Part shown: piece by piece, positions 26,191 through 52,719 of the stretch
How the letters are laid out: each line of letters begins with the position of its first letter
Position numbering within the stretch: the first letter of the stretch is position 1
Source: Candidatus Terraquivivens ruidianensis
Lineage (GTDB): Archaea > Thermoproteota > Nitrososphaeria_A > Caldarchaeales > Wolframiiraptoraceae
Direction of reading: 5' to 3'
Assembly (NCBI GenBank): GCA_023267975.1
Contig: JALNLA010000003.1
Location: 62,001-126,000 of the forward strand
Length of the DNA stretch: 64,000 bases
Notes under the pieces: model-generated
Database searches by the model: none
Told to the model about the DNA's origin: nothing
Seen by the model: the letters and a program-made list of their open reading frames with translations, nothing else
Program-made: the position numbers and the translations under genes

Positions 26191-26263
26191 ACCCCATCAG
26201 CATAACGTGAATGGATTTAAATTTATCGGTAACGAAAATCACGGTAAGGAAGGGACGGGGCAG

Positions 26264-29125
26264 GTGGGCAACTTATCTAGTGACGACGTCTTAGAGTTGT
26301 TGGCAAAGCCTGTCAGGGTTGCTTTCATCGAAAGGTTTGGAGAGTTAACCCCACCTCAGATCGAGAGCATACCGAAGATATTAGATGGTAAGAACCTACT
26401 GCTGATGGCGCCGACCGGTACTGGAAAGACTGAGGCAGCCCTCCTTCCCATACTAAGCAATTTGCTGTTAAATCCTGGGCTTCCAGGAATAAAGGTGCTT
26501 TACATAACACCGCTACGTGCCCTCAACCGGGATATGCTGGAAAGGTTTGACTGGTGGGCCAAGAAACTGGACATCAGGGTATCCGTCAGGCATGGGGATA
26601 CCGCTCTCATGGAAAGGAGGACACAAACCCTCAGCCCTCCAGACATACTGATAACGACCCCTGAGACTCTTCAAGCAATCTTGTGCGGAAAGGTCCTCAG
26701 AAAGCACTTGAAGGGCATAAGGTGGGTCATCGTAGACGAGGTCCACGAGCTTGCCACAGACAAGAGAGGCGCGCAGCTCTCCATAGCGCTGGAGAGGCTC
26801 TTGGAGATAGTCGGTTCCGAGTTTCAGAGGATCGGCCTCTCTGCTACGGTCGGTAGCCCCGAGGCGATAGCTAAGTTCCTAGTCGGGCCCGGAAGGAAAT
26901 GCGAGGTCGTAGGAGTCCCAGTAGCCAAGGGCATGACGATAGACGTCCTTTATCCTACGCCGGAAGACGAGGATGTCACGCTAGCTGAGGAGCTAGCAAT
27001 TCTGCCGGACGTGGCATCAAGGCTCAGGACGATAAGGAGGCTCGTAGAGTCGCACGGCTCGACGTTGATATTCACGAATACGAGACCGTTGGCTGAAATC
27101 TTGACCAACAGGTTCAGGGCATGGGACGAGAGCTTCAGCGTGGGGATACACCACGGCTCCTTGGCAAAGTCCGCAAGGATATCGACGGAGCAGGGGTTGA
27201 AGGCCGGTACACTGCTGGGTATAGTCTGCACATCATCTCTGGAGCTCGGGATAGACGTAGGCAGGATAGACCTCTGCATACAGTATAACTCGCCTAGGGA
27301 GGTGACGAGGCTCATACAGAGAGTCGGCAGGAGTGGACATAGAATAGGAAGGGTCGCAAAGGGCGTCATCTTGGTCATGGATTCGGATGATGCCCTCGAG
27401 TCCATCGTCATAGCCAGAAGGGCTCTGTTGGAGAGGCTAGAAGAGGTTAGGATACCTACGAACTGTCTCGATGTTCTGATGCACCAACTGGCTGGGCTCC
27501 TGATAGAGTATAGCCGTGTCAACGTCGAAGATGCGCTAAGGATATTCAGACGGGCATACGGTTTCTCAGAGCTCGACAAGAGCATGCTCATGAGAGTCCT
27601 TGAACACATGAAGGGATTGAACATCTGCGTGCTTACTGAAGACGGTTATTTCTGGAAGCCCGTTAACTCTAAGCCCCTTTACGACTACTACTTCGGAAAC
27701 CTGTCCATGATACCCGAGGAAAGACAGTACTTGGTCGTCCAAGAAAGTACTGAAGAACCCGTAGGCATACTGGACGAGGAGTTCGTCGCCGAGTACGGCG
27801 AGTCCGGTACGAGGTTCATACTACTCGGTAAGGCATGGGAGATACTCAGCACACTCGGTGAGAGAATCTATGTTAGGAAGTTGGATGAGTACGAAGGTGC
27901 GGTGCCTTCGTGGGTAGGCGACGAGATACCAGTTCCCTACGAAGTCGCGGAAGAGGTTGGTAACTTAAGGGCAGAGTACGAAGAACGACTCCGTAATAGT
28001 GAACCGCATGACGTTATCTGTCTCGACATAGCGAGAAGGTATGGCGTATCGGAAGGCCTCATCTCGAGGAGCATGGCTGAAGTTAGGACGCATATCGACT
28101 CAGGAATACCCGTGCCCACAAACAGGAGAATACTCGTGGAGAAAGCAGGAGAATACATGATCATACATATACACGGAGGACTAAGAATAAACAGAACCCT
28201 AGCTAAGGTTGTGTCGTTTATAGTATCCGAAAAAGTCGGCATGCCTGTTGCCGTTCAGCAAGACCCGTACAGAATCGTCATAAGGTCAAAATACGTTTAC
28301 CCAGAGCTTATCCTTGAGGCCTTCAAAAGTTTATCGGGAGAAATATTCGGTGAAACCTTAAGAAAAGCGATTGAAGGCTCAACGCTATTCAGGAGGAGGC
28401 TCGTTCACGTAGCAAGAAAGATGGGCGTCATCAGCAAAGAGGCGAGTATACTTGACGTCAGCCTTTCAAAAATCGCTGAGATACTAAAGGGTACGGTGGC
28501 ATACGACGAGGCGATGTCCTACTGCTTATTCCAAGACTTTGATGAACACGGCACACGTGAACTTCTTCGCTCCATATCCACAGGAAGCTACGAAGTTATA
28601 ACCTACTCGCCGCCCGATGCGGTAAGTCCCTCACCCTTAGCGCTGCTCACGCTCAGGCGTTACCAAGAAGCTTACGAGGCAGTATCTTCAGACAGGATTG
28701 AGAGGCTTGTGGTGATGGCCGTAAAGGCAAGGTTGATGAACGAGGCGGGCATTCTCGTATGCTCCGACTGCTATCAGTACTTCGATAAGGTAGCTGTCAA
28801 GGACGTCGATGAGAGGCCATCATGCCCTGCATGTGGCTCGAGGAAGCTTGGCTTCCTGAAGGTTGAAGTAGAGGATGTTTACGGTTTGGTATCCAGAAAG
28901 GGCAAGCCCGTAAGCAGAAAAGAGAAGGAGTTGCTTAAGGACATAGAGAAGAGCTCGGAGTTGGTGGAGAAGTACGGGAAGGCAGCCCTCGTGGCACTAT
29001 CGGGAAAGGGCTTTACCGTGAACGACGCTGCTAAGGTTTTAGAGAAGGAAGGAGGTTTAACGAATAGGCTTATAGGATACATAATCGAGGAGGAGAAAAA
29101 GAGGCTGGTTGCTACGTTCAGGTAG
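26264..29125 (+). CDS. lhr: Lhr-family superfamily 2 DNA/RNA helicase
   Basis: Lhr-type helicases unwind DNA or DNA-RNA hybrids and are linked to repair. The protein has about 953 residues. RecA domain 1 has Walker A (APTGTGKTEAALLP, about 49-62), TPLRALNRDM, DEVH box (VDEVHELATDKRG) and SAT (LSATVGSP). Domain 2 has TNTRPLAE and RVGRSGHRIGR. A winged-helix and Lhr core follow. A zinc ribbon (CSDCYQYF...CPACGSRKLG) lies near the C terminus. I use GTG 26264 because GGAAGGGACGGGG precedes it and the 19 residues before overlap a TATA-like TTTAAATTTA. Confidence 0.93.
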   Translation: MGNLSSDDVLELLAKPVRVAFIERFGELTPPQIESIPKILDGKNLLLMAPTGTGKTEAALLPILSNLLLNPGLPGIKVLYITPLRALNRDMLERFDWWAKKLDIRVSVRHGDTALMERRTQTLSPPDILITTPETLQAILCGKVLRKHLKGIRWVIVDEVHELATDKRGAQLSIALERLLEIVGSEFQRIGLSATVGSPEAIAKFLVGPGRKCEVVGVPVAKGMTIDVLYPTPEDEDVTLAEELAILPDVASRLRTIRRLVESHGSTLIFTNTRPLAEILTNRFRAWDESFSVGIHHGSLAKSARISTEQGLKAGTLLGIVCTSSLELGIDVGRIDLCIQYNSPREVTRLIQRVGRSGHRIGRVAKGVILVMDSDDALESIVIARRALLERLEEVRIPTNCLDVLMHQLAGLLIEYSRVNVEDALRIFRRAYGFSELDKSMLMRVLEHMKGLNICVLTEDGYFWKPVNSKPLYDYYFGNLSMIPEERQYLVVQESTEEPVGILDEEFVAEYGESGTRFILLGKAWEILSTLGERIYVRKLDEYEGAVPSWVGDEIPVPYEVAEEVGNLRAEYEERLRNSEPHDVICLDIARRYGVSEGLISRSMAEVRTHIDSGIPVPTNRRILVEKAGEYMIIHIHGGLRINRTLAKVVSFIVSEKVGMPVAVQQDPYRIVIRSKYVYPELILEAFKSLSGEIFGETLRKAIEGSTLFRRRLVHVARKMGVISKEASILDVSLSKIAEILKGTVAYDEAMSYCLFQDFDEHGTRELLRSISTGSYEVITYSPPDAVSPSPLALLTLRRYQEAYEAVSSDRIERLVVMAVKARLMNEAGILVCSDCYQYFDKVAVKDVDERPSCPACGSRKLGFLKVEVEDVYGLVSRKGKPVSRKEKELLKDIEKSSELVEKYGKAALVALSGKGFTVNDAAKVLEKEGGLTNRLIGYIIEEEKKRLVATFR

Positions 29126-29126
29126 T

Positions 29127-29576
29127 ATGGTGAACCGCTGCATGGGTAAGGAATATCCGAAGATGCCGGTGGTCGCCGTAGGTGCGCTGATACTTCAAGA
29201 CCACAACATACTTCTAGTTAAGAGGACGAACGAGCCCGGTAAAGGAAGGTGGTCCATCCCGGGCGGTACCGTCGAAATCGGGGAGTCGTTGAGGGATGCT
29301 GTGGTCAGGGAAGTTTACGAGGAAACCGGCCTCGTGGTTGAAGTGCTCGAATTACTGGACGTTGTCGAGGTCATCAGGAAGGATGAGGTCGGTAACATAG
29401 CCTTCCACTATGTAATCCTCGATTACTTGGCTAAACCAGTTGGTGGTACACTCGTGGCTGCTTCGGATGCCTCGGATGTTCTTTGGGTACCTATCGATGA
29501 GGCTATGAAGATGGAAATTACAGATAGCCTAAGAGCCATGCTTCAAAAGCTAATGAAGAAGGGGTTCTTCGTCTAA
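29127..29576 (+). CDS. Nudix hydrolase
   Basis: Nudix enzymes cleave nucleoside diphosphates linked to another group. The 149-residue protein has an intact Nudix box (GGTVEIGESLRDAVVREVYEETGL), with the GRWSIPGG strand before it. It resembles ADP-ribose pyrophosphatase or 8-oxo-dGTPase-type members; the substrate cannot be read. The ATG is one base after the lhr stop, behind AGGTAG, suggesting co-transcription with lhr. Confidence 0.9.
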   Translation: MVNRCMGKEYPKMPVVAVGALILQDHNILLVKRTNEPGKGRWSIPGGTVEIGESLRDAVVREVYEETGLVVEVLELLDVVEVIRKDEVGNIAFHYVILDYLAKPVGGTLVAASDASDVLWVPIDEAMKMEITDSLRAMLQKLMKKGFFV

Positions 29577-30193
29577 GTCTTCTCTTCAACCTCATCTTTA
29601 GCCTGGGAGGGTGAAAGGTCCATTATAGCCTTCAGTAACTCCTTTTCGTCCACCTCCGCCAGCGTTCTCCACCCGACCTTTATCATGCTGTCCTCAGCCC
29701 TTATAAGATACCCTTTCCTGACGAAGCGCTCTATGGCGGCCTCTACCTTCCACCTCGGAAGCTTTACCTCGATGAGTTCCACCAGCTCTTTCTCAGTAGC
29801 CTTACCACCCTTTGTGAATATGTAGGAGAGTGCCGCCGCTAGGACGGCCACGTCGTCTATATTCCAGCCTGCGGCCACTATGTCAGCAACCGAGAGTGGT
29901 TCTGAGAGTGTGATGAAGAACCTAGCCCTATCGAAGTCCTCCTGTGCTGGATTATCACCTAAAGGCTGGTCGAACATTATCTTTACCCTAAGGCCTATGC
30001 CATTCAGCTTACTATTCAGCGCATCAATTATCTTGAGATAATTCCTACCCAGCCTCCTCCGCAGCTCCCAGCCCCTGACACCAGGAAGTCTGTGGCTCGA
30101 GAAGAGGAGCATGCTGGCGGCTATCGCTAACTTCCTGCCAGTTCGCTCGGTTTCATTCTTTTTTTCTTCCAAGACCTTTAGACACCTCTCCAC
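29573..30193 (-). CDS. MAGE/Nse3-like kite subunit of an SMC complex
   Basis: The 206-residue protein appears to be two winged-helix domains. The C-terminal half strongly recalls the MAGE homology domain of eukaryotic Nse3. ALSYIFTKGGKATEKELVEL (121-140) corresponds to the LSxIFxxGxxxxEEELWxxL helix pair, RFVRKGYLIRAED to the VRQxYLxY strand, and GWRTLAEVDEKELLKAI to WGPRAxAExSKxKVLExL. The N-terminal half (RGWELRRRLGRNYLKIIDAL) looks like the first wing. ScpB and JetB are structural relatives (kite proteins). It is third in an SMC-kleisin-kite operon, overlapping the kleisin gene by 41 bases. The start is GTG 30193 or TTG 30172. The family call rests on pattern recognition and context. Confidence 0.72.
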   Translation of the reverse strand: MERCLKVLEEKKNETERTGRKLAIAASMLLFSSHRLPGVRGWELRRRLGRNYLKIIDALNSKLNGIGLRVKIMFDQPLGDNPAQEDFDRARFFITLSEPLSVADIVAAGWNIDDVAVLAAALSYIFTKGGKATEKELVELIEVKLPRWKVEAAIERFVRKGYLIRAEDSMIKVGWRTLAEVDEKELLKAIMDLSPSQAKDEVEEKT

Positions 30194-30944
30194 TTTTTAT
30201 GGAAACTACGAGCGCCGCTATTTTTTCTCTCTTTTGCTTCGAAGGATACGGTATCACCTTCATCTCTCCGGTAAGAGGATTCTTCTTTATTTCTGCCAAG
30301 CCTTCCGTGACCATGAAGCTAAGCACATACGCCTTCCACACGGTGTCTTCGAAGGTGTACGCACTCACTATAGACCAGTAGTCCACCTCGCCGCTGCTTC
30401 CTGCCATCATGATGCACCTATCATGCATCTTCTTTATTTCCTCTTCCAACTCAATGCCTTTTGCATATCCGACCTGGCCCGCGATACGCTGTGCATCCTC
30501 CCGCGCTATTGGAAGCTTTTCAAGAACCCTAGCTCTTGGCGGTAGCATCAAAAAATATTCCATTCCCTGCCTTAACCTATAAAGCGTAAGTTGCTCGGCT
30601 TTGACGATGGGCCTCCAGCTCCTCGCGAGCGCCGTAGCCAACTGCTTCGACTCGGCAGAAGCAATCTTAAGCGATACAAGTTGACTGTCTATGAAGAGTG
30701 ACGACGCCCTCTCCTTAAGCCATCTCTGTTGCAGCGATATCAGGACAGCTATCTTGTAAAGCGTCTCAGCATCAAGGACTATAGTATCCAAATCCCTTTG
30801 CTCTACCAGTATGCGCCTCAGCCTCATCAGGAGCTCCTTCACGTTAACTGAGAACGGGTCCAAGCCCCTTTTCTCGATGGACTCGCAAAGCGCTATTATC
30901 CTCTCCAGCTCCTCCTTGCTCACCATCTTCTTTTCATGAGACAT
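30153..30944 (-). CDS. ScpA/Nse4-like kleisin subunit of an SMC complex
   Basis: The 263-residue protein fits a kleisin, which bridges the two SMC heads. The N-terminal segment (about 18-85) follows the ScpA pattern: IEKRGLDPFSVNVKELLMRL, then a DAETLYKIAVLISLQQRWLK helix like the ScpA helix that packs on the SMC neck. The C-terminal segment (about 190-232) has a winged-helix pattern, SAYTFEDTVWKAYVLSF then MVTEGLAEIKKNPLTGEMKV. This resembles the ScpA domain that binds the SMC cap. It lies 6 bases after the SMC gene and overlaps the MAGE-like gene. No annotated family is obvious from sequence alone. Confidence 0.68.
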   Translation of the reverse strand: MSHEKKMVSKEELERIIALCESIEKRGLDPFSVNVKELLMRLRRILVEQRDLDTIVLDAETLYKIAVLISLQQRWLKERASSLFIDSQLVSLKIASAESKQLATALARSWRPIVKAEQLTLYRLRQGMEYFLMLPPRARVLEKLPIAREDAQRIAGQVGYAKGIELEEEIKKMHDRCIMMAGSSGEVDYWSIVSAYTFEDTVWKAYVLSFMVTEGLAEIKKNPLTGEMKVIPYPSKQKREKIAALVVSIKSGEVSKGLGRKKE

Positions 30945-30950
30945 ATTGTA

Positions 30951-32738
30951 TTACCTTTCCATCACACCGACAGAAGACCTTCCGCTGACGTTTTGAACGA
31001 TGATGACGTTCACGTCCTCGTCCACATTTATGTAACCAGGCGTTATTATTATGTACTGGACGGATGGGTCGCCTTTAGCCGTTGCCGTCAGCATCTTTAC
31101 CATTCTCTCCCTATTGAGAGGGTCCAAGTGAACGTCAAACTCGTCGACGGCCCTGAATGATGACTTAACGTACTTCTGTAGCGCAAGAAGGAAGGCGAGT
31201 GTCGCCACTATCCTCTCACCACCACTCTGCGTGTGGGAGTCTAAGAGTACGGGTTCAACGCCCCTAAAGCCGACGTAAAGGTCGAGGGATGCTTTCTCAA
31301 GGTCTTCCAAGTTGCGTAGGGATATCTTACCGCTTGCATCAACTGATTTCAGTATTTGGACGTAAGCCGGCTCGACTTCTGCTATAAGCTTTCTTAAGAA
31401 CTCCCTCCAAACCTCCTTTCTATGCTCAACTTCTTCCTTTGCCTTCTCTATGTTCTCGGATAGTTGCTTGGCTTTCATCTCAACCTCGCTGTACTTGGCG
31501 TCCGCCAAAAGGTACATTTCTTCGGCATTCGGCGTCACGCTACCCAAAGAGCTCATCTGGACTTCTAAGATCTTCAAATCCTCTTGAATCTCTATCGGTT
31601 TTCTACTGGTCTCGACACGAGGTCCTTTTAGCTCAGCCTCGGACATCTGGGATGCGAGCTTCGTCTTCAGCTCGCTCAGCTGGGACTTTAGCTTCCTCAT
31701 CTCAGACTCTATTAGACGTGTCTTGAACCTTGCGATCCCCTCTTGGACTTTCTCATCAACTAGCTCGTCTATCAGCCCATCTATCGTTTTTTCTAAATCA
31801 TCCAAAACCTCAGACGTTTGGGGTCCTACCCCCCTTAGCTGGTGTATCGTATCACGAATTCTCCCACGTAAAACCTCGGCTTCTGAGCTGTGCTCCTTAG
31901 CTTCCTTGTCTAAATCCTCAACCTCTAAGACAAGGGACGCAATCTTATCCTCAATCCTCTTTATATCGTTCTCCAAGGCTATAACTTGAGACCAAGCAAG
32001 CTCCCGCTCAAGCTCAACCTTATGACCCTCAAGCCTCTTGAGCTTCATCAGCTTCTCATACTCCTCTCTCCAATACTCCACGGTCGCCCTCGCTTCCTCC
32101 AGTGTTTTCTTGAAGCTCACTTCTTCGGTCAGCAGCATGTTCAGCTTGGCCTCAGCATCCATTATCCTCTCCCTGAGCCTCGATGCGCCGACAGCATCCT
32201 CAACCATCTGGAGCTTCTCGACGCTGCTCTTGGTCACGAACTGCTCTATCATATTCTGGTGCATTATGATGAGCATGTTGTTAGGGTTGATGCCTACTTG
32301 CTTAAGCAAGTGCTCGACCTCGGCCTTCGCCATAAACCTGTTGTTCACGTAGTGCCAGTAGTCTCCATTTCTTTTAAGGTACCTGGCGATGGATACTGTG
32401 TCCGTGTTTATTGTTCTAAAAGGTCTTTTTCTGTCATAAGCACTATTGTTGAATACGACAGTGACCCTGGCCACATCCTTTCCGCGACGTATTAGGTCGC
32501 TTAGCCGCTCACCCCTCTCCGTGTAAGTCTGACCAAGGGCCACGGATATGCCTAAGAGTATTGAGGACTTCCCGGCGCCGTTGGGCCCCATTATGACGTT
32601 AAGACCAGGCCTCAGCGGTATCCTAGAGTACTCGTGAGACATAAAGTTCTCTAGGATTACCTCCTTTATGTGCGGCAGGTACTCGGCCCTCTGCTCCAGC
32701 TCAAGCCTCTCAGTGGGTCGCTCGTCCGAATTTTCCAC
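30951..32738 (-). CDS. Compact SMC5/6-like ATPase
   Basis: The 595-residue protein has complete SMC head motifs: Walker A GPNGAGKSS (51-59), a Q-loop-like HQNMIEQF (160-167), signature QSGGER (504-509), Walker B AVDEFDVHLDP (530-540), and QYIIITP (561-567). NFMSHE, RGERLSDLIRRGKDVARVTV, the HTQSGGERIVATLAFLLALQ block and the QYxxITP end resemble SMC5/SMC6 more than bacterial SMC or Rad50. The coiled-coil arms (about 190-300 and 330-455) are very short and I see no normal ~150-residue hinge; eukaryotic SMC5/6 have about 1000-1100 residues. The GTG start follows GGAGGAGAG. It is first in the operon. Confidence 0.85.
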   Translation of the reverse strand: MENSDERPTERLELEQRAEYLPHIKEVILENFMSHEYSRIPLRPGLNVIMGPNGAGKSSILLGISVALGQTYTERGERLSDLIRRGKDVARVTVVFNNSAYDRKRPFRTINTDTVSIARYLKRNGDYWHYVNNRFMAKAEVEHLLKQVGINPNNMLIIMHQNMIEQFVTKSSVEKLQMVEDAVGASRLRERIMDAEAKLNMLLTEEVSFKKTLEEARATVEYWREEYEKLMKLKRLEGHKVELERELAWSQVIALENDIKRIEDKIASLVLEVEDLDKEAKEHSSEAEVLRGRIRDTIHQLRGVGPQTSEVLDDLEKTIDGLIDELVDEKVQEGIARFKTRLIESEMRKLKSQLSELKTKLASQMSEAELKGPRVETSRKPIEIQEDLKILEVQMSSLGSVTPNAEEMYLLADAKYSEVEMKAKQLSENIEKAKEEVEHRKEVWREFLRKLIAEVEPAYVQILKSVDASGKISLRNLEDLEKASLDLYVGFRGVEPVLLDSHTQSGGERIVATLAFLLALQKYVKSSFRAVDEFDVHLDPLNRERMVKMLTATAKGDPSVQYIIITPGYINVDEDVNVIIVQNVSGRSSVGVMER

Positions 32739-32916
32739 TTTGGGGGCTCTCCTCCCTTGCCTTTGATTTTAACCGTAGTATATTTGGATTATCGGGAAGG
32801 TTACTGAAAGACAGGAGCCCTTAAACTTTGAGACCAGGAGACCTTATATTTCTGGCCATAACTAGATGGACGTGACGTAATGCTTGAGTGCTCTGGCTCG
32901 TGGTTAAAAAATTACA

Positions 32917-34005
32917 TCATTTTTGGTGAATCCAGGATGGCTCTTCAAGCAACTGCTTCAATTTCTTCAGGAACCTTGCAGCTGGTGCACCATCAACCAC
33001 CCTATGGTCAAAGACCAACGTTAAGGGACACACAAGCCCTACGCGAATTTGTTCGTCCTTTACGACGGCCTTCTTCGAGACCTTTCCTACGCCGAGTATC
33101 GCTATGGCTGGCGGGTTTATTATAGGTGTGAAGAAGTCAACGCCCTCCGTTCCCAAATTCGATACCGTGAAGGTATGCCCCTTGAGCTCATCCAAAGACA
33201 AGCTACCCTTCATCGCCTTATCCTTAAGCACCTCGATCTCGGCGCTTATCTCGGCCACGTTTTTTTCGTCGGCCCTCTTGATTACAGGTGCGTAAAGCCC
33301 GTGCGGCGTGTCAACGGCTACGGCTATGTTTACCTCTCGTATGTATTTGACCTCATCTTCCTCAAAGATCGCATTCATAGACCTATCCTCGCTGAGGGCC
33401 TTGGCTGCTGCTTTGACGAAGAGCGCTGTTAGAGAAACTTTCTCGAAACCCCGCTCCCCCCTCATAGATTCTAATAGAGTAACCACAGGCTCAGCGTCAA
33501 ACTCAACCATTAGAGCAACGGGTATGCTCACGTGGAAACCGATACTGAGCTTTTGAATCATGGCTTTCCTGAATGGTGTGAGCTTAACGCTACTCAGCAT
33601 TTCAGGCATAGCCTCTGCACGCTTGCCCAACTCCTCCACTGCCCTCAGCACATCTTCCCTCGTTATCCTACCTTCGGGTCCGGTGCCCTTTACGACCCTT
33701 AGGTCTATTCCATACTCTGCCGCGAGCTTTCTGGCCGCCGGCGATGCCTTAATCCTCTCCTCTACCTCGGCCTCTTCACCTATCTCGGCTATCGGCTCGC
33801 CTACCTTTGCCTCCTCGCCCTCCTGCTTGAGTACCCTGAGTAGGATTCCGTCAATCGGTGAAGTTATCTCGAACGTAGTCTTCTCACCCTCGATGACCGC
33901 TACAGCCTCGCCCTCCTTCACCCTATCGCCTTCCCTTTTCAGCCATTCGACTACCTTACCGCTTTCCATCGCGGGGTCTATCCTCGGCATAAAAATCTGC
34001 CTCAT
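32917..34005 (-). CDS. 2-oxoacid dehydrogenase E2 (dihydrolipoamide acyltransferase)
   Basis: E2 is the core of a 2-oxoacid or acetoin dehydrogenase complex and passes the acyl group from lipoate to CoA. In order: a lipoyl domain (about 1-75, with the lipoyl lysine in EGEKTTFEI), a peripheral-subunit-binding domain (ASPAARKLAAEYGIDL...GPEGRITREDV), and the catalytic domain ending in FDHRVVDGAPAARFL with the active-site His. ATG 34005 gives the family N terminus; an upstream start adds six residues. It overlaps or abuts the E1-beta stop, so the operon order is E1-alpha, E1-beta, E2. No E3 or lipoate ligase is in the window. Confidence 0.93.
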   Translation of the reverse strand: MRQIFMPRIDPAMESGKVVEWLKREGDRVKEGEAVAVIEGEKTTFEITSPIDGILLRVLKQEGEEAKVGEPIAEIGEEAEVEERIKASPAARKLAAEYGIDLRVVKGTGPEGRITREDVLRAVEELGKRAEAMPEMLSSVKLTPFRKAMIQKLSIGFHVSIPVALMVEFDAEPVVTLLESMRGERGFEKVSLTALFVKAAAKALSEDRSMNAIFEEDEVKYIREVNIAVAVDTPHGLYAPVIKRADEKNVAEISAEIEVLKDKAMKGSLSLDELKGHTFTVSNLGTEGVDFFTPIINPPAIAILGVGKVSKKAVVKDEQIRVGLVCPLTLVFDHRVVDGAPAARFLKKLKQLLEEPSWIHQK

Positions 34006-34009
34006 ACCT

Positions 34010-34990
34010 TCAGCTCCCCCCAAGGAGGCCTAAGACTGCCTTGACAACGTCCTCCTTATCTGGCATGTATTCTTGCTCAAGCTTTTGGGAGAACGGGACG
34101 GGAAGGTCTGGGCAGTTGAGCCTTACCGGTGGAGCGTCAAGGTAGTCGAAGGCCTCTTCTATGACCCGAGCTACAATCTCAGCCGCTATACCGCCGGTCT
34201 TCACACTATCCTCCGCGACTATCAGCCTACCGGTCCTCTTGACGGAGTCAAGTATCGTCTGAAAGTCCATAGGATATATCGTTCTCGGGTCTATCACTTC
34301 AACCTCCACACCCTTTGCCGAGAGCTCTTCGGCCGCGCTGAGCGCTTCCCTTACGAGTCTCGCTATCGCCACCAACGTAACGTCCCTTCCTTTTCGCTTC
34401 ACGTCGGCTCTGCGCAACGGTATCACATACTCCTCTTCAGGAACGGGGGCCTTCCATCTATATAGGACGCCCGTCTCGACGAAAAGGACGGGGTTATCAT
34501 TCCTTATCGCTGACTTCAGCAACCCCTTCGCATCGTAAGGCGTCGAGGGCATGACCGTGATGAGTCCAGGAACCTGTAAGAACCATGCGCCCAAGAATTG
34601 TGAATGCTGTGCTCCATGGACCCTTCCTAAACTGTACTGCGTCCTCAGGACCATCGGCACCTTCAGCTGTCCAGCACTCATGAAGCGCATCTTGGCGGCT
34701 TGGGTTACCAGCTGGTCCATGCATATGGGTATAAAGTCGAAGTACATTATCTCAGCAACAGGTCTTAGGCCCATGAGGGCAGCACCTATCGCCACGCCCG
34801 CTATCGCTGCCTCCGATATCGGCGTATCCCTGACCCTTTCGGGCCCGAACTCCTTCAGCAACCCCTCAGTAACCTTGTACGCGCCACCGAATACTCCTAC
34901 GTCCTCACCCAGCACAATTACCCTCTCATCCCTCAGCATCTCTTCTCTAAGGGCTTCGCGCAAAGCTTCTGCATAGGTTATCTCTCTCAT
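34010..34990 (-). CDS. 2-oxoacid dehydrogenase E1 component, beta subunit
   Basis: Paired with the alpha subunit, this subunit completes the thiamine-diphosphate enzyme that decarboxylates a 2-oxoacid or acetoin. The protein (about 326 residues) has EALREEMLRDERVIVLGEDVG near the N terminus, DTPISEAAIAGVAIGAALMG, MRTQYSLG-like RTQYSLGRVHGAQHSQ and VEVIDPRTIYPMDFQTI. ATG 34990 is preferred to 34999. Its end overlaps or touches the E2 start. It has the short length of acetoin or branched-chain E1-beta proteins; the substrate cannot be fixed by sequence. Confidence 0.93.
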   Translation of the reverse strand: MREITYAEALREALREEMLRDERVIVLGEDVGVFGGAYKVTEGLLKEFGPERVRDTPISEAAIAGVAIGAALMGLRPVAEIMYFDFIPICMDQLVTQAAKMRFMSAGQLKVPMVLRTQYSLGRVHGAQHSQFLGAWFLQVPGLITVMPSTPYDAKGLLKSAIRNDNPVLFVETGVLYRWKAPVPEEEYVIPLRRADVKRKGRDVTLVAIARLVREALSAAEELSAKGVEVEVIDPRTIYPMDFQTILDSVKRTGRLIVAEDSVKTGGIAAEIVARVIEEAFDYLDAPPVRLNCPDLPVPFSQKLEQEYMPDKEDVVKAVLGLLGGS

Positions 34991-35002
34991 GAGGCTCAAC
35001 CC

Positions 35003-36031
35003 CTATACATAAACGAACTCATATAGCTTAGAAAAGTCCAAGACCCTGCTACCCTTAGCAAACTCAACGGCCCGATTCACCTCCAACCTGACCTCAGTAT
35101 TCATGCGCTTAAAATCCTCTTCATTAATTAGACCGGCCTTTAGAAGGTTCTTGTAGAACATTTCTATCGGGTCCCGCTTAAGCCATACCTCGACCTCTTC
35201 CTTTGGTCTATACTCCGCCTTGTCGTAAACGCCGTGGCCCTTCATCCTGTACGTTCTACATTCGAGAAAGACTGGAACTCTCTCCCTTCGTATGTGTTTT
35301 GATGCTTCGAGCGTGGCCTTGTATACCGCCATGACATCGTTTCCATCAACCATGTAGCTCTTTATACCGTAGCAGGATGTTCTCGCTGCTATGTTCTCTC
35401 CAGCAAAGGCTCTTGTGAGGTGCGTGCCCATCCCATAGAGGTTGTTTTCACATACCAGAAGCACCGGAAGCTTCCATAGGGAGATTATGTTCATGGCTTC
35501 ATGAAAGGCGCCAGTGTTCGTGGCACCGTCGCCGAAGAAGGTCGTCACAACTTTGTCCTCGTTTTTCATTTTGACGGCCAAGGCTGCGCCCGCAGCTATG
35601 GGTATTCCACTACCCACTATGGCCGTTGCATAGATCACGTTCCTTTCTAGACATATCGCGGCGTGCATCGAGCCACCCAACCCCTTACACGTTCCAGTCT
35701 CTTTACCGAAAAGCTCGGCCATCAGCATATCCATCCGTACGCCTTTTGCGAGTGCGTGCCCATGGCACCTATACGTCGTAACGAAAGGGTCATCATCCCT
35801 CAGAGCAGCCGCTACGCCCGTTGCGATTGCCTCCTCACCTAAATACAGATGCGACGGCCCTATAAGAGATCCCTCGACGAGGAATAGTTCCTCTACCTTT
35901 TCCTCGAATATCCTCATCTCGAGCATCTTCCGAAGTATCCAGAGAAGCTTATCCCTTGATGCTAAAGACCCGTATTCTGTGTAATCTGGACCCTTGATGT
36001 AGGGAATTTTATCGAAGTTATGTGAAGACAT
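35003..36031 (-). CDS. 2-oxoacid dehydrogenase E1 component, alpha subunit
   Basis: The 342-residue protein holds the thiamine-diphosphate motif GDGATNTGAFHEAMN...VCENN. It also has SHLYLGEEAIATGV, YRCHGHALAKGV, FGKETGTCKGLGGSMH and IVGSGIPIAAGAALA, all typical of the alpha subunit. These blocks look closer to acetoin dehydrogenase (AcoA) or pyruvate dehydrogenase than to branched-chain E1-alpha, but I cannot settle the substrate. It is first in the operon, 12 bases or less before E1-beta. Two zinc dehydrogenases follow on the far side of a divergent promoter. Confidence 0.92.
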   Translation of the reverse strand: MSSHNFDKIPYIKGPDYTEYGSLASRDKLLWILRKMLEMRIFEEKVEELFLVEGSLIGPSHLYLGEEAIATGVAAALRDDDPFVTTYRCHGHALAKGVRMDMLMAELFGKETGTCKGLGGSMHAAICLERNVIYATAIVGSGIPIAAGAALAVKMKNEDKVVTTFFGDGATNTGAFHEAMNIISLWKLPVLLVCENNLYGMGTHLTRAFAGENIAARTSCYGIKSYMVDGNDVMAVYKATLEASKHIRRERVPVFLECRTYRMKGHGVYDKAEYRPKEEVEVWLKRDPIEMFYKNLLKAGLINEEDFKRMNTEVRLEVNRAVEFAKGSRVLDFSKLYEFVYV

Positions 36032-46954: not shown

Positions 46955-47842
46955 ATGCCAATGACGCTGAAGCAGCTTTTTGAGCGCGCAAACTTGCTTA
47001 AGCAAAGGCTACGGGAAGAGGAGGGTAGCGAGAGATATCAAGCGTGGTTGAAGAGGGCAAAGAATGTCTGGAGGCCGTACCAGCCTAAGAAGGTTAGGAA
47101 GAAAATTGCGGCAGTCGATAGCGGATGGAATTACAGAATGTACGGCGGGTTTTACCTCTATACCATTAGGGCTATGGCCGTCGCACCATCATCAGAAACC
47201 GTTACGGAACCCGTGGTAGAAGTTGACATAATACCGATGGGGGTTGAGGACTCAGGCATAAGACCCGAGTTGTACATGCAAGGAGTGGCCGAATGTTATG
47301 AACACGACTTAGCATCAAAAGCATCAAAGTTTTCGGATATTGTTTTAGTCGACGGGTCTATCTTAGCGAGACTAAACGCGATGGATATCTTAAAAAAGGT
47401 CAGGCTCTTAAAAGATTACGTAGTTTACATGAGGCCGCTGAAAAATGCAAGGAACATACTCTTCATATCGAAGTACTCCCAAGACAGGAGACTTATACGT
47501 GGAGGGGTTGGAGACGTTTACTACATCAACAGGGCAACGAGAGACATCGGGTATACGGAGCCCATAATATCCGAGAAGGAGGGGGTGATGACATCAGTCT
47601 TCTACGTTAGGTTGTCAGAAAATTCCGATGCGATGCACGTGGAGGTCCCTGCCATAGTCAACTCCGAATACGTCAAATCCGTAATTGACGCACTGTATGG
47701 CACGGCAGTCAAGGGATACCCGTACGCCCTTATGGTTGCCCATGAGATGGCCTCAGTACCCAACGATCTTATGGATATGGTCGTCGAGGCAGCAGGGCTC
47801 GCCGCTCTTCCGACGGCTAGGGAGGTGCTCGAGGTTGGTTGA
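46955..47842 (+). CDS. nurA: NurA 5'-3' nuclease
   Basis: NurA is the nuclease partner of HerA; with Mre11-Rad50 it resects DNA ends for recombinational repair. The 295-residue protein has the acidic motifs AVDSGW (Asp55) and VLVDGSILARL, the metal-binding sites of the family, plus a C-terminal aspartate in YVKSVIDALYG. It opens the nurA-herA-mre11-rad50 operon. Two in-frame ATGs at 46955 and 46961 are equally possible starts. Confidence 0.95.
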   Translation: MPMTLKQLFERANLLKQRLREEEGSERYQAWLKRAKNVWRPYQPKKVRKKIAAVDSGWNYRMYGGFYLYTIRAMAVAPSSETVTEPVVEVDIIPMGVEDSGIRPELYMQGVAECYEHDLASKASKFSDIVLVDGSILARLNAMDILKKVRLLKDYVVYMRPLKNARNILFISKYSQDRRLIRGGVGDVYYINRATRDIGYTEPIISEKEGVMTSVFYVRLSENSDAMHVEVPAIVNSEYVKSVIDALYGTAVKGYPYALMVAHEMASVPNDLMDMVVEAAGLAALPTAREVLEVG

Positions 47843-49325
47843 AATCGGTATCGTGGTCGGCGAGGCAAGACCCGAAAGGATAAAATTCTTCACGAAAGAG
47901 GCGGTCAGGGTCGGAGAGTTCGTCGTGACAGATACTGTGGACGGGCGAGTTTTGTACTTGGTAGAATCCTCTAAGCTGGAGAGTAAGCTTCTGTCGAGTG
48001 TGGGTGACTACATAACGGCAATTGAGGCAAAGGAAGCAAGTAAGGCTAACCCTAGGGACGTTGTGAGGTATTGTGCAGCAAGGGCCGTCGGGCTTATCGA
48101 GGGAGTTTTGAAGGGTAGGCGCGTTTATCCCACCCTACCGCCTGAGCCGGGCTCGGCCGTCTTCCTAGCCGAAGACGATTTGCTAAGGCAAATATTCCAT
48201 AATGATTCGAGGGAGTGGGTTGAAGTTGGAAGGTTGTTGAGGAGGGATGGGGTTATAGTTTCGATCAACTTGAACAAGGTTGCCTCCAGGCACCTTGCGA
48301 TATTGGCAGCTACCGGCAAGGGGAAGTCGAACCTATTAGCACTCCTAGCAAAGGAAACAGCGGAGAAGAATGGAACCATGATAATCTTAGACTATCACGC
48401 AGAGTATTGTAAACTGAAGATTGAAAAAGCGAGGTTCGTGACTCCGAGGATCAATCCGAGACATCTAGACTCTGAGGAGTTGGCAGATATGCTCGACATA
48501 AGGAGTGACGCAACGAGGCAAAGGGGCATACTCGGAAGGGCATACAATAAAAATGTGGCGAGCTCACCGAACTTCTGGGAAGCTCTAAAGAAAAACCTTG
48601 AGGATATTGTAGAAAACGAAGAGACGGACTTTCAAGCTAAGGTTACCGCTGAGAGGGTCCTGGAGATAATCGATAGGGGGCTCGCGATAAAGGGTAACAT
48701 ATTCAATACAGAGACGGAGAGCCCGCTAGACATCATCGAGCCCAACAGGATAAATGTGTTAGACCTCTCGGGATTCACAGAAATCCAAGCTCAGATAATC
48801 GTTGCGCGCTACTTAACGGAAATCCTGAATGACAGGAAGAACGCAACGCTCGGCAGGAGGTCAAGGTTCAAATCGCCCGTAGTCATAGCGGTCGAGGAGG
48901 CTCATACGTTCATACCGTATGACAGAAAATCCAAATGTTCTGATGTGTTAGCTAGAATAGCGAGGGAAGGTAGAAAGTTCGGTGTCTCGCTGATTCTAGT
49001 CTCACAAAGACCCTGCAAGCTGGACGCGGATGTCGCGAGCCAGATGGGTAGCTTCGCCGTATCTGGCTTGACCCATCCAAAGGACCAGGACTTTGTCATG
49101 GAAGTGACTGACGAGGTCTCGACGGAGCTAGGCGCATCATTACCAAGCCTTAACACTGGCGAGATGATACTCGCAGGTCAATGGGTAACAGTACCGGCAC
49201 TCGTTAAGGTGGACCTCATAGAAGAGAAGGTCATAGGCATGGACTTAAACGCGATAGAAATGTGGGCCGAGGACGTCAATGTGGGATACAGAAGGATATC
49301 GACGGAGGAACTCATCAGACTATGA
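47835..49325 (+). CDS. herA: HerA bipolar DNA helicase/translocase
   Basis: HerA is a hexameric FtsK-like ATPase that works with NurA in end resection. The 496-residue protein has an N-terminal HAS barrel (about 1-140). Walker A is ATGKGKSN (159-166). A Walker B-like block reads VVIAVEEAHTFIP, and a sensor/Arg-finger region reads LARIAREGRKFGVSLILVSQRP. The frame is open 150 bases further upstream, but the TTG at 47835, overlapping the nurA end by 8 bases and preceded by GGAGGTGCTCGAGG, gives the proper N terminus VEIGIVVGEARP. Confidence 0.95.
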   Translation: MVEIGIVVGEARPERIKFFTKEAVRVGEFVVTDTVDGRVLYLVESSKLESKLLSSVGDYITAIEAKEASKANPRDVVRYCAARAVGLIEGVLKGRRVYPTLPPEPGSAVFLAEDDLLRQIFHNDSREWVEVGRLLRRDGVIVSINLNKVASRHLAILAATGKGKSNLLALLAKETAEKNGTMIILDYHAEYCKLKIEKARFVTPRINPRHLDSEELADMLDIRSDATRQRGILGRAYNKNVASSPNFWEALKKNLEDIVENEETDFQAKVTAERVLEIIDRGLAIKGNIFNTETESPLDIIEPNRINVLDLSGFTEIQAQIIVARYLTEILNDRKNATLGRRSRFKSPVVIAVEEAHTFIPYDRKSKCSDVLARIAREGRKFGVSLILVSQRPCKLDADVASQMGSFAVSGLTHPKDQDFVMEVTDEVSTELGASLPSLNTGEMILAGQWVTVPALVKVDLIEEKVIGMDLNAIEMWAEDVNVGYRRISTEELIRL

Positions 49326-50437
49326 TTATCGGGCACATGTCCGATACGCATCTCGGAGCTTATGCGGGAAAGGACGATGAGAGGGAGCAAGATTACTACG
49401 ACGCTTTCCGGGAGGCTATCGAGGTATTTGTAAAGGACCACGTCAAGTTGGTCATCCACTCGGGCGACATACTGGACTCTCCCAAACCATACGGAACCGC
49501 CATGAAGGTTCTTGTAGAGGGCGTTAAGCTACTGGATGAAAGAGGCATACAGTTTCTATTTACATTGGGTGAGCACGACATATCTAACGTTCCAAGCACG
49601 CCCCACCCTTACCTCCTTGACGTTCTGGGGGTCGCTAAGTATGTTGGAACAGGAGAACCTGTCATTATCGACGACGTAGTTGTAGCCGGCCTTCACAAGC
49701 ATAAGAGAGTTGAAAGGGAAATGTTATGCAAAAAGCTTGACGAGGTTGCTAGAAGGGTGAGCCAAACGGACGGAAAAAGAAGAATCGTTGTCTTACATCA
49801 AGGACTTACGGGGTTACGTGAGTTTGTGGGCGAGATATCCAAAGACGATATCCCAGCAGGCTTTGATTACTATGCGATGGGGCACTTCCATGTGCCCTAC
49901 GAGTTCAGATGCGGTAAAGGGTTGGGTGCATACCCAGGAGCGACCCATTGGGTGGACTGGGACGACCCCGAGACCACTTCCATCAACTTAGTTGACCTTT
50001 CCGGTGATGAGCCTAGGATAAACATAGTTAGATTAAAGACCGTAAGACCAAAGATAGAGAAGGATACAAAGCTCGAAGAGCTGGATGGCATTTTACAAGA
50101 GCTAGCATCCTCTATACGTGAAAACCGTAAGAAGCCTTGCCTCCTACTAAAAGTCGAAACCGACAGACCCTTTGACCCTAGGCCGTCTGAAGATTCGTTA
50201 AAGAACCACTACATCGTCACGATTAGGCAAGTCTTGAAAAAGGTGGGCGGAGAGGTTCTGCAGGAGGCTCCAGACGTGAATGCCGAGTTGGTGAGGTTGA
50301 CGGAAAACGTTATAGGAGACAAGGATAAAGCCGAGTTTGCGCTCTTCGAATTACTCAAGGCCCTTAGCGATGAGGATTGGAGGAAGGGGGCACTTGAGCT
50401 CGTCTGGAATGTCTTCAAAGAGGGAAAGCTAAAGTGA
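49322..50437 (+). CDS. mre11: Mre11 nuclease/phosphodiesterase
   Basis: Mre11 processes DNA ends together with Rad50. The 371-residue protein has HMSDTHLGAY (motif 1), IHSGDILDS (motif 2), LGEHDIS in the place of the usual GNHD motif, VLHQG and YAMGHFHVP (GHxH motif). The GEHD variant replaces the metal-binding Asn with Glu. ATG 49322 overlaps the herA stop as ATGA, and its 3' end overlaps the rad50 GTG start (GTGA), so all four genes are tightly coupled. Confidence 0.95.
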   Translation: MIIGHMSDTHLGAYAGKDDEREQDYYDAFREAIEVFVKDHVKLVIHSGDILDSPKPYGTAMKVLVEGVKLLDERGIQFLFTLGEHDISNVPSTPHPYLLDVLGVAKYVGTGEPVIIDDVVVAGLHKHKRVEREMLCKKLDEVARRVSQTDGKRRIVVLHQGLTGLREFVGEISKDDIPAGFDYYAMGHFHVPYEFRCGKGLGAYPGATHWVDWDDPETTSINLVDLSGDEPRINIVRLKTVRPKIEKDTKLEELDGILQELASSIRENRKKPCLLLKVETDRPFDPRPSEDSLKNHYIVTIRQVLKKVGGEVLQEAPDVNAELVRLTENVIGDKDKAEFALFELLKALSDEDWRKGALELVWNVFKEGKLK

Positions 50438-52719
50438 TCACTAGGGTTTTCCTCAAGAATTTCATATCACATAAGGAGACTTCCCTGAACCTAGGGCCAG
50501 GTCTTCACGTCTTCGTGGGCAGAAATGGTTCTGGAAAGACTTCTGTCATAGATGGAATAACTTATGCGCTCTTCAGCAAGCATGGAAGGGGAGGTAACAC
50601 CAACATAGCTAGGGATGGGACACCCGGAGGTCTTGTAGAGGTTGAGGTAATGCTCGGCGGCAGGACGTACTTAGTCGGTAGGAGCTTCGACCGTCAAGGT
50701 AAGCTGGAAGAAGCGTACCTAAGAGTTGATGGAAAATCCTTGGTGAGGGGCGAGAGAAAGAAGGAGGACACGGTAACTAAAAAGGTCGAGGAAATCTTGG
50801 GCATGGGATACGAAAGGATGAGAGCATCCGTAATCATTCAGCAAGGAGAGATTGACAGGATACTTTCTTGGCAACCGAAGGAGATAAAGGCACTCTTCGA
50901 CGACCTCCTAGGTCTTAGCATGATGGAAAACGCTTACATGAAGATGGGTAGCGTGATTAAGGATTTCGAAGAAAGAATAAGAGAGGAGACGGAATACTCG
51001 GTTGACGAAGCCGACAGGGTCAGTAAAGAAATCTCAGAATCTGAGTTGGCTCTAAACAATCTTAACGAGGAATTAAGAAAGGAAGAGTACCAACTCACGG
51101 AGTTAAAGAAAAAGTGTGAGGGGATGGAGGTTAAGCTAGAAAGGATGGAGCACTATAAAGAAGCATACTCTGATGCTTTATCCAAAGTTAATTCTATCAA
51201 GGCCATCGTTAGGGATTGGATAAAAAGAAAAGAGGCAGAGCTTGAGAAGTGTGCATCAATATTAAAACTGATAGAAAGGATGGACGTGGTCAATGATAGG
51301 GTCAATAAAAAGAATAAGCTAAAAGAAGAAATCACAAAGTTAGAGACGGAGATTGAGCATTTAGAGAAGGAAATAAACAGGGTCGAGGGCGAAAGGGTAG
51401 AAGTTGAGAAGAAGTTAAATGCCCTGGGAGAAAAAGAGGTTAGGGGAAGGATGTTTTCTGAGCTCCTCAAAGAGGTCGATAGCGAGACGGCTGAGCTCGT
51501 CAGGTTGGCCGTAGAGTTCGGCAAGGCATTAGCAACGGGAGACGGAAGAGAAATTACTCTGAAGAAGTCTGTGGAGGACAAAAGGAAAGAGATAATCGAA
51601 CTTTTTAGAGAGTCGTATACATCTGGGCTCCAGACATACTCCGAGGACCTAAAGGCCAAAAGGAAGACCTTGGGCGAGGAGAAAGAGGCCCTTTCATTAA
51701 AGAGAGAGTCATCAATGGTGATGTTAAATGCTAAGAAGAAAGAATTCGCTCAACTCTCTAAACTGGATGGTAAAGATGTTGAAGAGTGGCAAGAAGAAGT
51801 TAGGAGGGCTAAGGCAACCTTAGAGGCAATTGGCATCGATAGCCCAGAGAGGCTTGGTCTTGAGAAGACGAAGTTAGAGCGCATTAAGAACATCCTTGCG
51901 TCAATTCCAGAAGACAGCCTTCCAGACCTTGAATTGCTTAACGCCCTAGCCGTGACGGATGAGGTTGCTCAGATGGTAAAGAACGCTAATGCCACGATAT
52001 CAGAGGCCAGGGCCTTTGATAAGGAGCGATACGGGGAGCTTAGGAAATCCTACGATGAGCTTCAGAAGAATATTGGCGTGCTGCAGGGTGAGCTTGAGGG
52101 GATTAAGAAAGACATCAAGAAGGAAGAGGATAAGCTTAGAAAGCTCAAGAGCGTCACATCCATCCTTCAGGATGCCAAGAGGTTCCGAGATTTCCTCATG
52201 GATGTTAGGGATAAGGTGTACCATAGGGATGGTCCCGTGCTTAAGTCCCTCAGATCGTGGGCCATCAGCGAGACGTCCAGGCTTGCCACTAGGCACCTAG
52301 AGATGTTCAACATTAACGTTGACGGTGTGAGGCTAGAGGAAGTAAAAAACGAGCTCGAGATTAAATGCTATCAGAGAGGGCGGGAAGTCGATGCTGATAG
52401 GCTTAGCGGTGGTGAGAAGGTTGCCGTGGCGCTTGCCCTTAGACTTGCCATCGGCGATATCTTGGGCGCGAGAAGGTTAGGCTTCTTCATACTCGATGAG
52501 CCGACCGTGCACCTCGATTCCGAGAATAAGAAAAGGCTTGCGGAAGTCTTCTCGGCGCTTAGCAAAGGGGTCAGGCAGGTAATCGTAATCACGCACGACG
52601 AAGAAGTCTTCGAAGAAGCTGAAGCTGCATTGTATAAATTTGAAAGAGGAGCAGGAATAGAGGAGCACACCAGAGTGGAGCCCCTAGGAAAAATAACAAT
52701 AGGTCTAACAAAAAGCTAA
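50434..52719 (+). CDS. rad50: Rad50 ATPase without a zinc-hook motif
   Basis: Rad50 holds DNA ends and controls Mre11. The 761-residue protein has NFISHKETSL, Walker A GRNGSGKTS (29-37), Q-loop IIQQGEIDRIL, signature RLSGGEKVAVALALRLA (656-672) and Walker B LGFFILDEPTVHLD (682-695). Long coiled-coil arms run about 170-330 and 400-600. The normal apex CxxC zinc hook is absent: the only cysteines are 228, 273 and 645, none in a CxxC. The protein is also shorter than P. furiosus Rad50. The start is GTG, overlapping mre11 by 4 bases. Confidence 0.95.
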   Translation: MITRVFLKNFISHKETSLNLGPGLHVFVGRNGSGKTSVIDGITYALFSKHGRGGNTNIARDGTPGGLVEVEVMLGGRTYLVGRSFDRQGKLEEAYLRVDGKSLVRGERKKEDTVTKKVEEILGMGYERMRASVIIQQGEIDRILSWQPKEIKALFDDLLGLSMMENAYMKMGSVIKDFEERIREETEYSVDEADRVSKEISESELALNNLNEELRKEEYQLTELKKKCEGMEVKLERMEHYKEAYSDALSKVNSIKAIVRDWIKRKEAELEKCASILKLIERMDVVNDRVNKKNKLKEEITKLETEIEHLEKEINRVEGERVEVEKKLNALGEKEVRGRMFSELLKEVDSETAELVRLAVEFGKALATGDGREITLKKSVEDKRKEIIELFRESYTSGLQTYSEDLKAKRKTLGEEKEALSLKRESSMVMLNAKKKEFAQLSKLDGKDVEEWQEEVRRAKATLEAIGIDSPERLGLEKTKLERIKNILASIPEDSLPDLELLNALAVTDEVAQMVKNANATISEARAFDKERYGELRKSYDELQKNIGVLQGELEGIKKDIKKEEDKLRKLKSVTSILQDAKRFRDFLMDVRDKVYHRDGPVLKSLRSWAISETSRLATRHLEMFNINVDGVRLEEVKNELEIKCYQRGREVDADRLSGGEKVAVALALRLAIGDILGARRLGFFILDEPTVHLDSENKKRLAEVFSALSKGVRQVIVITHDEEVFEEAEAALYKFERGAGIEEHTRVEPLGKITIGLTKS

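Follow-up and report, generated by a model that had tools for sequence, protein, structure and literature searches.

We describe here a three-gene operon of the archaeon Candidatus Terraquivivens ruidianensis, contained in a stretch of 64,000 nucleotides (the window; contig JALNLA010000003.1, positions 62,001 to 126,000), that very likely encodes a complete, minimal KITE-type complex of a structural maintenance of chromosomes (SMC) ATPase and a kleisin, belonging to the Smc5/6 clade and separate from the canonical Smc-kleisin-ScpB complex. The genes lie consecutively on the minus strand between positions 32738 and 29573, and encode an SMC ATPase of 595 amino acids (aa), a kleisin of 263 aa, and a kite, a double winged-helix protein of 206 aa. 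A sequence-only reading of the window had proposed that three overlapping or closely spaced genes specify, in this order, an SMC5/6-like ATPase, a ScpA-like kleisin, and an Nse3-like kite, together a candidate ancestor or minimal form of Smc5/6. The open reading frames, the identity of the ATPase, and the gene order were all borne out, while the class of the kleisin, the specificity of the kite, and the term ancestor needed revision.

Placement of the operon SMC in the Smc5/6 clade, to the exclusion of canonical SMCs, is supported by database matches, phylogeny, and motifs. Its best match in the PDB was yeast Smc5 (E-value 9.6e-35), with canonical Smc behind at 3.9e-24, and a profile of 30 relatives matched human SMC6 (4e-65), yeast Smc5, and yeast Smc6 all above canonical archaeal Smc (5e-47). 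In a tree of SMC head domains (53 sequences, including 24 archaeal operon SMCs, human and yeast Smc5 and Smc6, Asgard proteins, and canonical SMCs), the 24 operon SMCs grouped with Smc5, Smc6, and a pair of Asgard proteins in one clade (support 100/96); another three Asgard proteins branched next to this clade and the canonical SMCs lay apart. As Smc5 and Smc6 are both long branches, we rebuilt the tree with each left out in turn, the two long Asgard rows being removed as well; support for the archaeal-eukaryotic group was 95/89 when only Smc5 was kept and 100/100 when only Smc6 was kept. Each of the 24 archaeal rows has an arginine in a FRAVDE-type Walker B and the residues ITP at the switch position. 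Both features recur in Smc5 and Smc6 (with the exception of yeast Smc6 in Walker B), and canonical SMCs have an FYxxDE-type Walker B and mostly ISL, VSL, or ITL at the switch position.

That the 263-residue protein is a kleisin is well supported, and the sequence evidence, and to a lesser degree the fold, places it closer to Nse4 than to ScpA, which corrects the proposed ScpA-like class. Nse4_C was by far the commonest Pfam family of the kleisins (19 of 31 members, best 3.5e-7) and was also the best family of the window protein itself, ahead of ScpA, with a match at residues 196-230. The kleisin profile searched against the PDB found yeast Nse4 (6e-5) and human EID3/Nse4 (4e-4) ahead of ScpA (0.17-0.24). 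The list of Foldseek matches was headed by Nse4, ScpA, cohesin, and condensin kleisin chains, Nse4 being the best at 2.3e-3.

For the kite, a profile search of the PDB gave no significant match (the best was the MAGE-domain protein 7dg2_C at 0.053), and a comparison of folds was therefore needed. The AlphaFold2 model of the kite is good, as judged by its predicted local distance difference test score (pLDDT, 86.9), and the top 11 Foldseek matches in the PDB were all MAGE or Nse1-Nse3/Smc5/6-complex chains (2.9e-6 to 1.3e-3), with MukE at rank 23 and ScpB, which the kite thus does not resemble most, at rank 40. The predicted likeness of its C-terminal half to MAGE holds, as MAGE was the sole Pfam family of the window kite (residues 115-183, E 0.0039, 17.4 bits, under the curated 25), and family-wide the two commonest families were MAGE (14 of 29 members) and SMC_Nse1 (13 of 29). 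The likeness is not specific to Nse3: the kite resembles Nse1 about equally (7dg2_C, 2.9e-6; 7dg2_A, 2.7e-5), and so may represent the undivided ancestor of both proteins. The kite has no RING, containing one cysteine in its 206 residues, and a single kite gene was found in the host genome, leading us to consider it likely that a kite homodimer takes the place of Nse1 and Nse3.

A search of the host genome (1.3 Mb, 97% complete) with SMC_N identified three clear SMC-type ATPases: a canonical frame of 1161 aa on another contig (C6), the operon SMC, and the Rad50 of the window. On contig C6 the canonical SMC is directly followed by a gene of kleisin size and by a genuine ScpB, and the window operon therefore represents a second complex rather than the sole one. 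It might be argued that this second complex is simply a diverged copy of canonical Smc-ScpAB (a bacterial-type condensin) whose likeness to Smc5/6 arose by convergence or fast evolution, as the canonical operon of the host has the same SMC-kleisin-kite order and the kleisin profile also reaches ScpA (at the values given above) and, by iteration, the canonical kleisin. We consider this very unlikely, however, since the tree splits the two SMCs with strong support even without Smc5 or Smc6, Nse4 and Nse1/Nse3 outscore ScpA and ScpB for the kleisin and kite in both sequence and fold, and the real ScpB of this genome sits beside the canonical SMC.

The three genes occur together well beyond this genome, and neither of the outcomes that would have refuted the sequence-only reading (no winged-helix or MAGE/ScpB match together with no kleisin match, or a lack of co-occurrence in relatives) was observed. 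Among 151 genomes spread across the phylum, the SMC was found in 70, the kite in 68, and the kleisin in 69, with SMC and kite both present in 67 and both absent in 80. The four discordant genomes comprise two that are 70-77% complete (G318 and G300), one whose contig ends within the kleisin (G361), and one whose SMC match is a partial frame (G275). The trio is adjacent in the order SMC-kleisin-kite in 60 of the 67 genomes; in the other seven there is a wider gap (G339), a split over contigs (G278), or, in five genomes of families f3 and f10, dispersal of genes that are nevertheless all present, and this retention without synteny strengthens the functional link. Kleisin and then kite followed the SMC in all 26 loci examined (in 25 at positions +1/+2, in the remaining locus displaced by one). 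Within the same order or closer, the SMC was present at E 3e-69 or better in 42 of 44 genomes, which, together with the co-occurrence across the phylum, argues that the observation is not due to chance. Among the named carriers are Bathyarchaeota, Thermofilales, Methanodesulfokora, and an uncultured Thaumarchaeota genome, and named archaeal loci with intact flanks had all three genes in order (13/13), although labels of metagenome bins (e.g., Hadesarchaea, Hodarchaeaceae) may be wrong. Clear trios, with SMCs of ~760-840 aa, number at least four in Asgard genomes (one trio cut by a contig end), and Asgard genomes with ~1125-aa SMCs gave weak kleisin and kite scores. Far from being a rarity, the operon is found as a module in many TACK archaea, and Asgard genomes have variants of it.

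This distribution also bears on whether the trio could serve in defence against plasmid or viral DNA, which it would recognise in the manner of Wadjet/MksBEF or Lamassu systems. A KITE-SMC architecture is common to Wadjet, and in humans extrachromosomal DNA is kept in check by Smc5/6 itself (PMC10586767). However, in the 26 loci no further same-strand gene is conserved beside the trio, neither a nuclease (such as the JetD type that marks Wadjet/MksBEF) nor another effector; the operon is near-universal in the order and vertically consistent, unlike patchy defence islands, and its SMC lies in the Smc5/6 clade. A defence function of this kind is very unlikely.

Several results weigh against a complete complex of the Smc5/6 clade. 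The AlphaFold2 model of the kleisin is modest (pLDDT 70, predicted template modelling score 0.38), none of its Foldseek matches reaches 1e-3, and the single-protein Pfam scores of kleisin and kite fall under the curated cut-offs, the strength of both assignments being in the family-wide counts, profiles, and fold. The Fisher p value for the co-occurrence of SMC and kite (5e-38) overstates independence, as the genomes in which they co-occur are related. Finally, the SMC has no recognisable hinge: SMC_hinge was found in 0 of 30 family members (Pfam, E 0.01), and the arms plus tip span ~254 residues in the operon SMC and, in certain other lineages, 345-362, vs. ~828 in the canonical SMC of the host. 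An Asgard relative that has its genes in this same order retains an SMC hinge, which makes it simpler to suppose that the TACK lineages lost theirs. The canonical SMC of the host is likewise without a Pfam hinge match at the same threshold, and it is therefore possible that the operon SMC has a diverged hinge, though small space remains for one.

The short arms and absent hinge would also suit a protein that no longer forms an SMC ring and acts instead in repair, as an ATPase like Rad50 or RecF that the kleisin and kite regulate, and a NurA-HerA-Mre11-Rad50 cluster is found 14-20 kb from the operon. That the CxxC zinc hook is present in 0 of 24 members, that the host already has a Rad50, and that the kleisin and kite are strictly co-retained with the SMC make such a repair ATPase highly improbable relative to an SMC-kleisin-kite complex.

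The archaeal complex resembles the eukaryotic Smc5/6 core (Smc5, Smc6, Nse4, Nse1, and Nse3) in SMC clade and motifs, in its Nse4-class kleisin, and in its Nse1/Nse3-class kite. It differs in having one SMC rather than two (the host genome has only one SMC of the clade, and hence no heterodimer), one kite rather than two, no RING, no recognisable hinge, an arm-and-tip region of ~250-360 residues, and its three genes in a single operon. By a strict test it is not a eukaryotic Smc5/6, as heterodimer, recognisable hinge, second kite, and RING are all lacking, but belongs to the same clade as a simpler complex. No match to zf-Nse, for the Nse2 SUMO ligase, was found in the host genome, and control genomes were equally without a match. 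With Smc-ScpAB the trio shares SMC-kleisin-kite make-up and gene order; it differs in the classes of its kleisin (Nse4) and kite (Nse1/3), and the canonical SMC-kleisin-ScpB operon of the host is a different one. A 2020 study made the case that kites are mostly absent from archaeal Smc complexes (PMC7055376); the window likewise encodes an archaeal SMC and kleisin, but here SMC and kite are strictly retained together. ASRP (coalescin, Sph), arcadin-4, and Rad50 are, like the operon SMC, compact archaeal SMC-superfamily ATPases. Identity with either of the first two was rejected as the operon SMC scored far under their NCBIfam cut-offs (64.7 bits vs. 300 for the ASRP equivalog; 39 vs. 860 for arcadin-4), and it differs from these ATPases in having no CxxC hook.

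An archaeal "SMC5/6-related SMC" in a clade with eukaryotic SMC5 and SMC6 was reported by Yoshinaga and Inagaki (2021), as cited in PMC9389158, and the operon SMC takes the same place in the tree. In PMC9389158 this work is described as dealing with an SMC only, with no kleisin mentioned; to this already known SMC the window adds an Nse4-like kleisin and an Nse1/3-like kite in one operon. A 2023 review lists as KITE complexes only Smc5/6, Smc-ScpAB, and MukBEF/MksBEF/Wadjet (PMC10512200). Among the papers searched we found no account of an archaeal Nse4-type kleisin and Nse1/3-type kite with an SMC5/6-related SMC, though a 2024 preprint on SMC origins (van Hooff et al., bioRxiv 2024.01.07.573240), which was outside our search, may contain one.

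The archaeal complex probably works like Smc5/6, and we infer its stoichiometry, assembly, DNA clamping, and cellular role from Smc5/6 and KITE complexes in general (PMC10512200). A pair of the short SMCs would associate through their ATP-bound heads and arm tips, and the kleisin would link the heads asymmetrically, with its N-terminal helices on one neck and its C-terminal winged helix on the other cap. The short linker of the kleisin would carry a kite dimer, which could then press DNA to the engaged heads, with ATP hydrolysis opening and closing the clamp to give DNA entrapment or short-step movement. The clade, the near-universal conservation in the order, and an Lhr-family helicase as convergent neighbour suggest a role in genome maintenance, which might involve recombination intermediates, stalled forks, or extrachromosomal DNA.

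Of the eukaryotic SMC complexes Smc5/6 is the least understood, and it alone keeps kites. As each of the three archaeal proteins resembles an Smc5/6 part above all else, the Smc5/6 core probably predates eukaryotes. We lean slightly toward a fuller scenario in which a functional archaeal Smc5/6 core preceded eukaryotes, Smc5/Smc6 and Nse1/Nse3 arose by later duplication of SMC and kite, and TACK archaea keep a version with a hinge-less, short-armed SMC, whose action would do without a classical hinge. The word ancestor cannot be applied to the operon, because the archaeal SMCs branch as the sister of Smc5/Smc6 and the absence of the hinge looks like loss; a sister of Smc5/6 with reductions fits better. 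An archaeal version would place the origin of Nse4- and Nse1/3-type subunits ahead of that of eukaryotes, would offer a tractable three-protein system for structural and single-molecule work, and, with its very short arms and no recognisable hinge, would test which parts of the SMC motor are dispensable.

Table 1. Features of the SMC-kleisin-kite operon (positions are those of the window).
Feature	Position	Strand	Basis and remarks
SMC ATPase of Smc5/6 clade	30951..32738	-	595 aa; PDB match, profile, tree
Nse4-like kleisin	30153..30944	-	263 aa; Pfam Nse4_C, PDB profile, Foldseek
Nse1/Nse3-class kite, tandem winged helix, no RING	29573..30193	-	206 aa; AlphaFold2 pLDDT 86.9, Foldseek
Shine-Dalgarno-like GGGAGGAG ahead of GTG start of SMC gene	32749..32756	-	Read from sequence; putative function
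SMC Walker A GPNGAGKSS, residues 51-59	32562..32588	-	Sequence; near-invariant across 30 relatives
SMC short coiled-coil arms and tip, residues ~195-455	31374..32156	-	No recognisable SMC hinge, no zinc hook
SMC ABC signature SGGER, residues 505-509	31212..31226	-	Invariant in SMC alignment
SMC Walker B FRAVDE	31140..31157	-	Motif table; run FRAVDEFDVHLDP like human Smc6 FRCLDEFDVYMD and Smc5 FRVVDEINQGMDP
SMC ITP motif, switch position	31038..31046	-	Motif table; common to Smc5/Smc6
Kleisin N-terminal helical domain, residues 2-133	30546..30941	-	AlphaFold2 model; predicted SMC-neck binder, by analogy with kleisins
Kleisin C-terminal winged helix, residues 163-232	30249..30458	-	Foldseek to ScpA 4i99, TM 0.81 by target length; predicted SMC-cap binder
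Kite second winged helix, residues 112-173, MAGE-matching part	29675..29860	-	Pfam MAGE 115-183; model

The SMC and kleisin genes are separated by 6 bp, and the kleisin and kite genes overlap by at most 41 bp. The overlap is possibly shorter, with an in-frame GTG-type start a few codons further in, and the kites of same-genus relatives start near this alternative site. An intergenic stretch of 178 bp precedes the SMC gene on its 5' side, and the 3' side of the operon is closed by a convergent gene (29109-29576). The Lhr-family helicase (DEAD, DEAD_assoc, WH_Lhr; 26207-29125, plus strand) is convergent with the operon in this genome, and an opposite-strand family that includes its homologues occurs near the operon in 11 of the 26 loci. 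Directly upstream are genes, identified by eye from their translations, for E1 alpha, E1 beta, and E2 of a pyruvate/2-oxoacid dehydrogenase type (32917-36031, minus strand). The NurA, HerA, Mre11-like phosphoesterase, and Rad50 genes form a single run (46955-52719, plus strand), in agreement with the earlier placement of Mre11-Rad50 within 20 kb of the operon. The spacing of Rad50 and operon is alike within the genus (11-14 kb in G001, G003, and G005), but closeness is no general rule, as the two are ~130 kb apart in G036.

Asgard genomes provided some further observations. An AAA+ ATPase gene lies directly upstream of the SMC5/6-like gene in three loci (L133:7573-8964, L136:7759-8958, and L139:3987-5066; PF00004 E 7e-26 in L133, weaker in L136 and L139); it was not seen in the window, and its product is possibly an extra partner. 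Besides canonical SMCs, Asgard loci (L132-L134, L136-L143, L147-L149) seemingly encode several kinds of SMC, in groups of ~830, ~1000, and ~1125 aa that form separate clades in the tree, the ~1000-aa group being inside the Smc5/6 clade on a long branch. Lastly, in a canonical SMC of 1305 aa (L061:155-4072, minus strand; also in G049) the Walker A reads GRNGSGKCIAPWTIIERPWGG, which looks like a P-loop intein.

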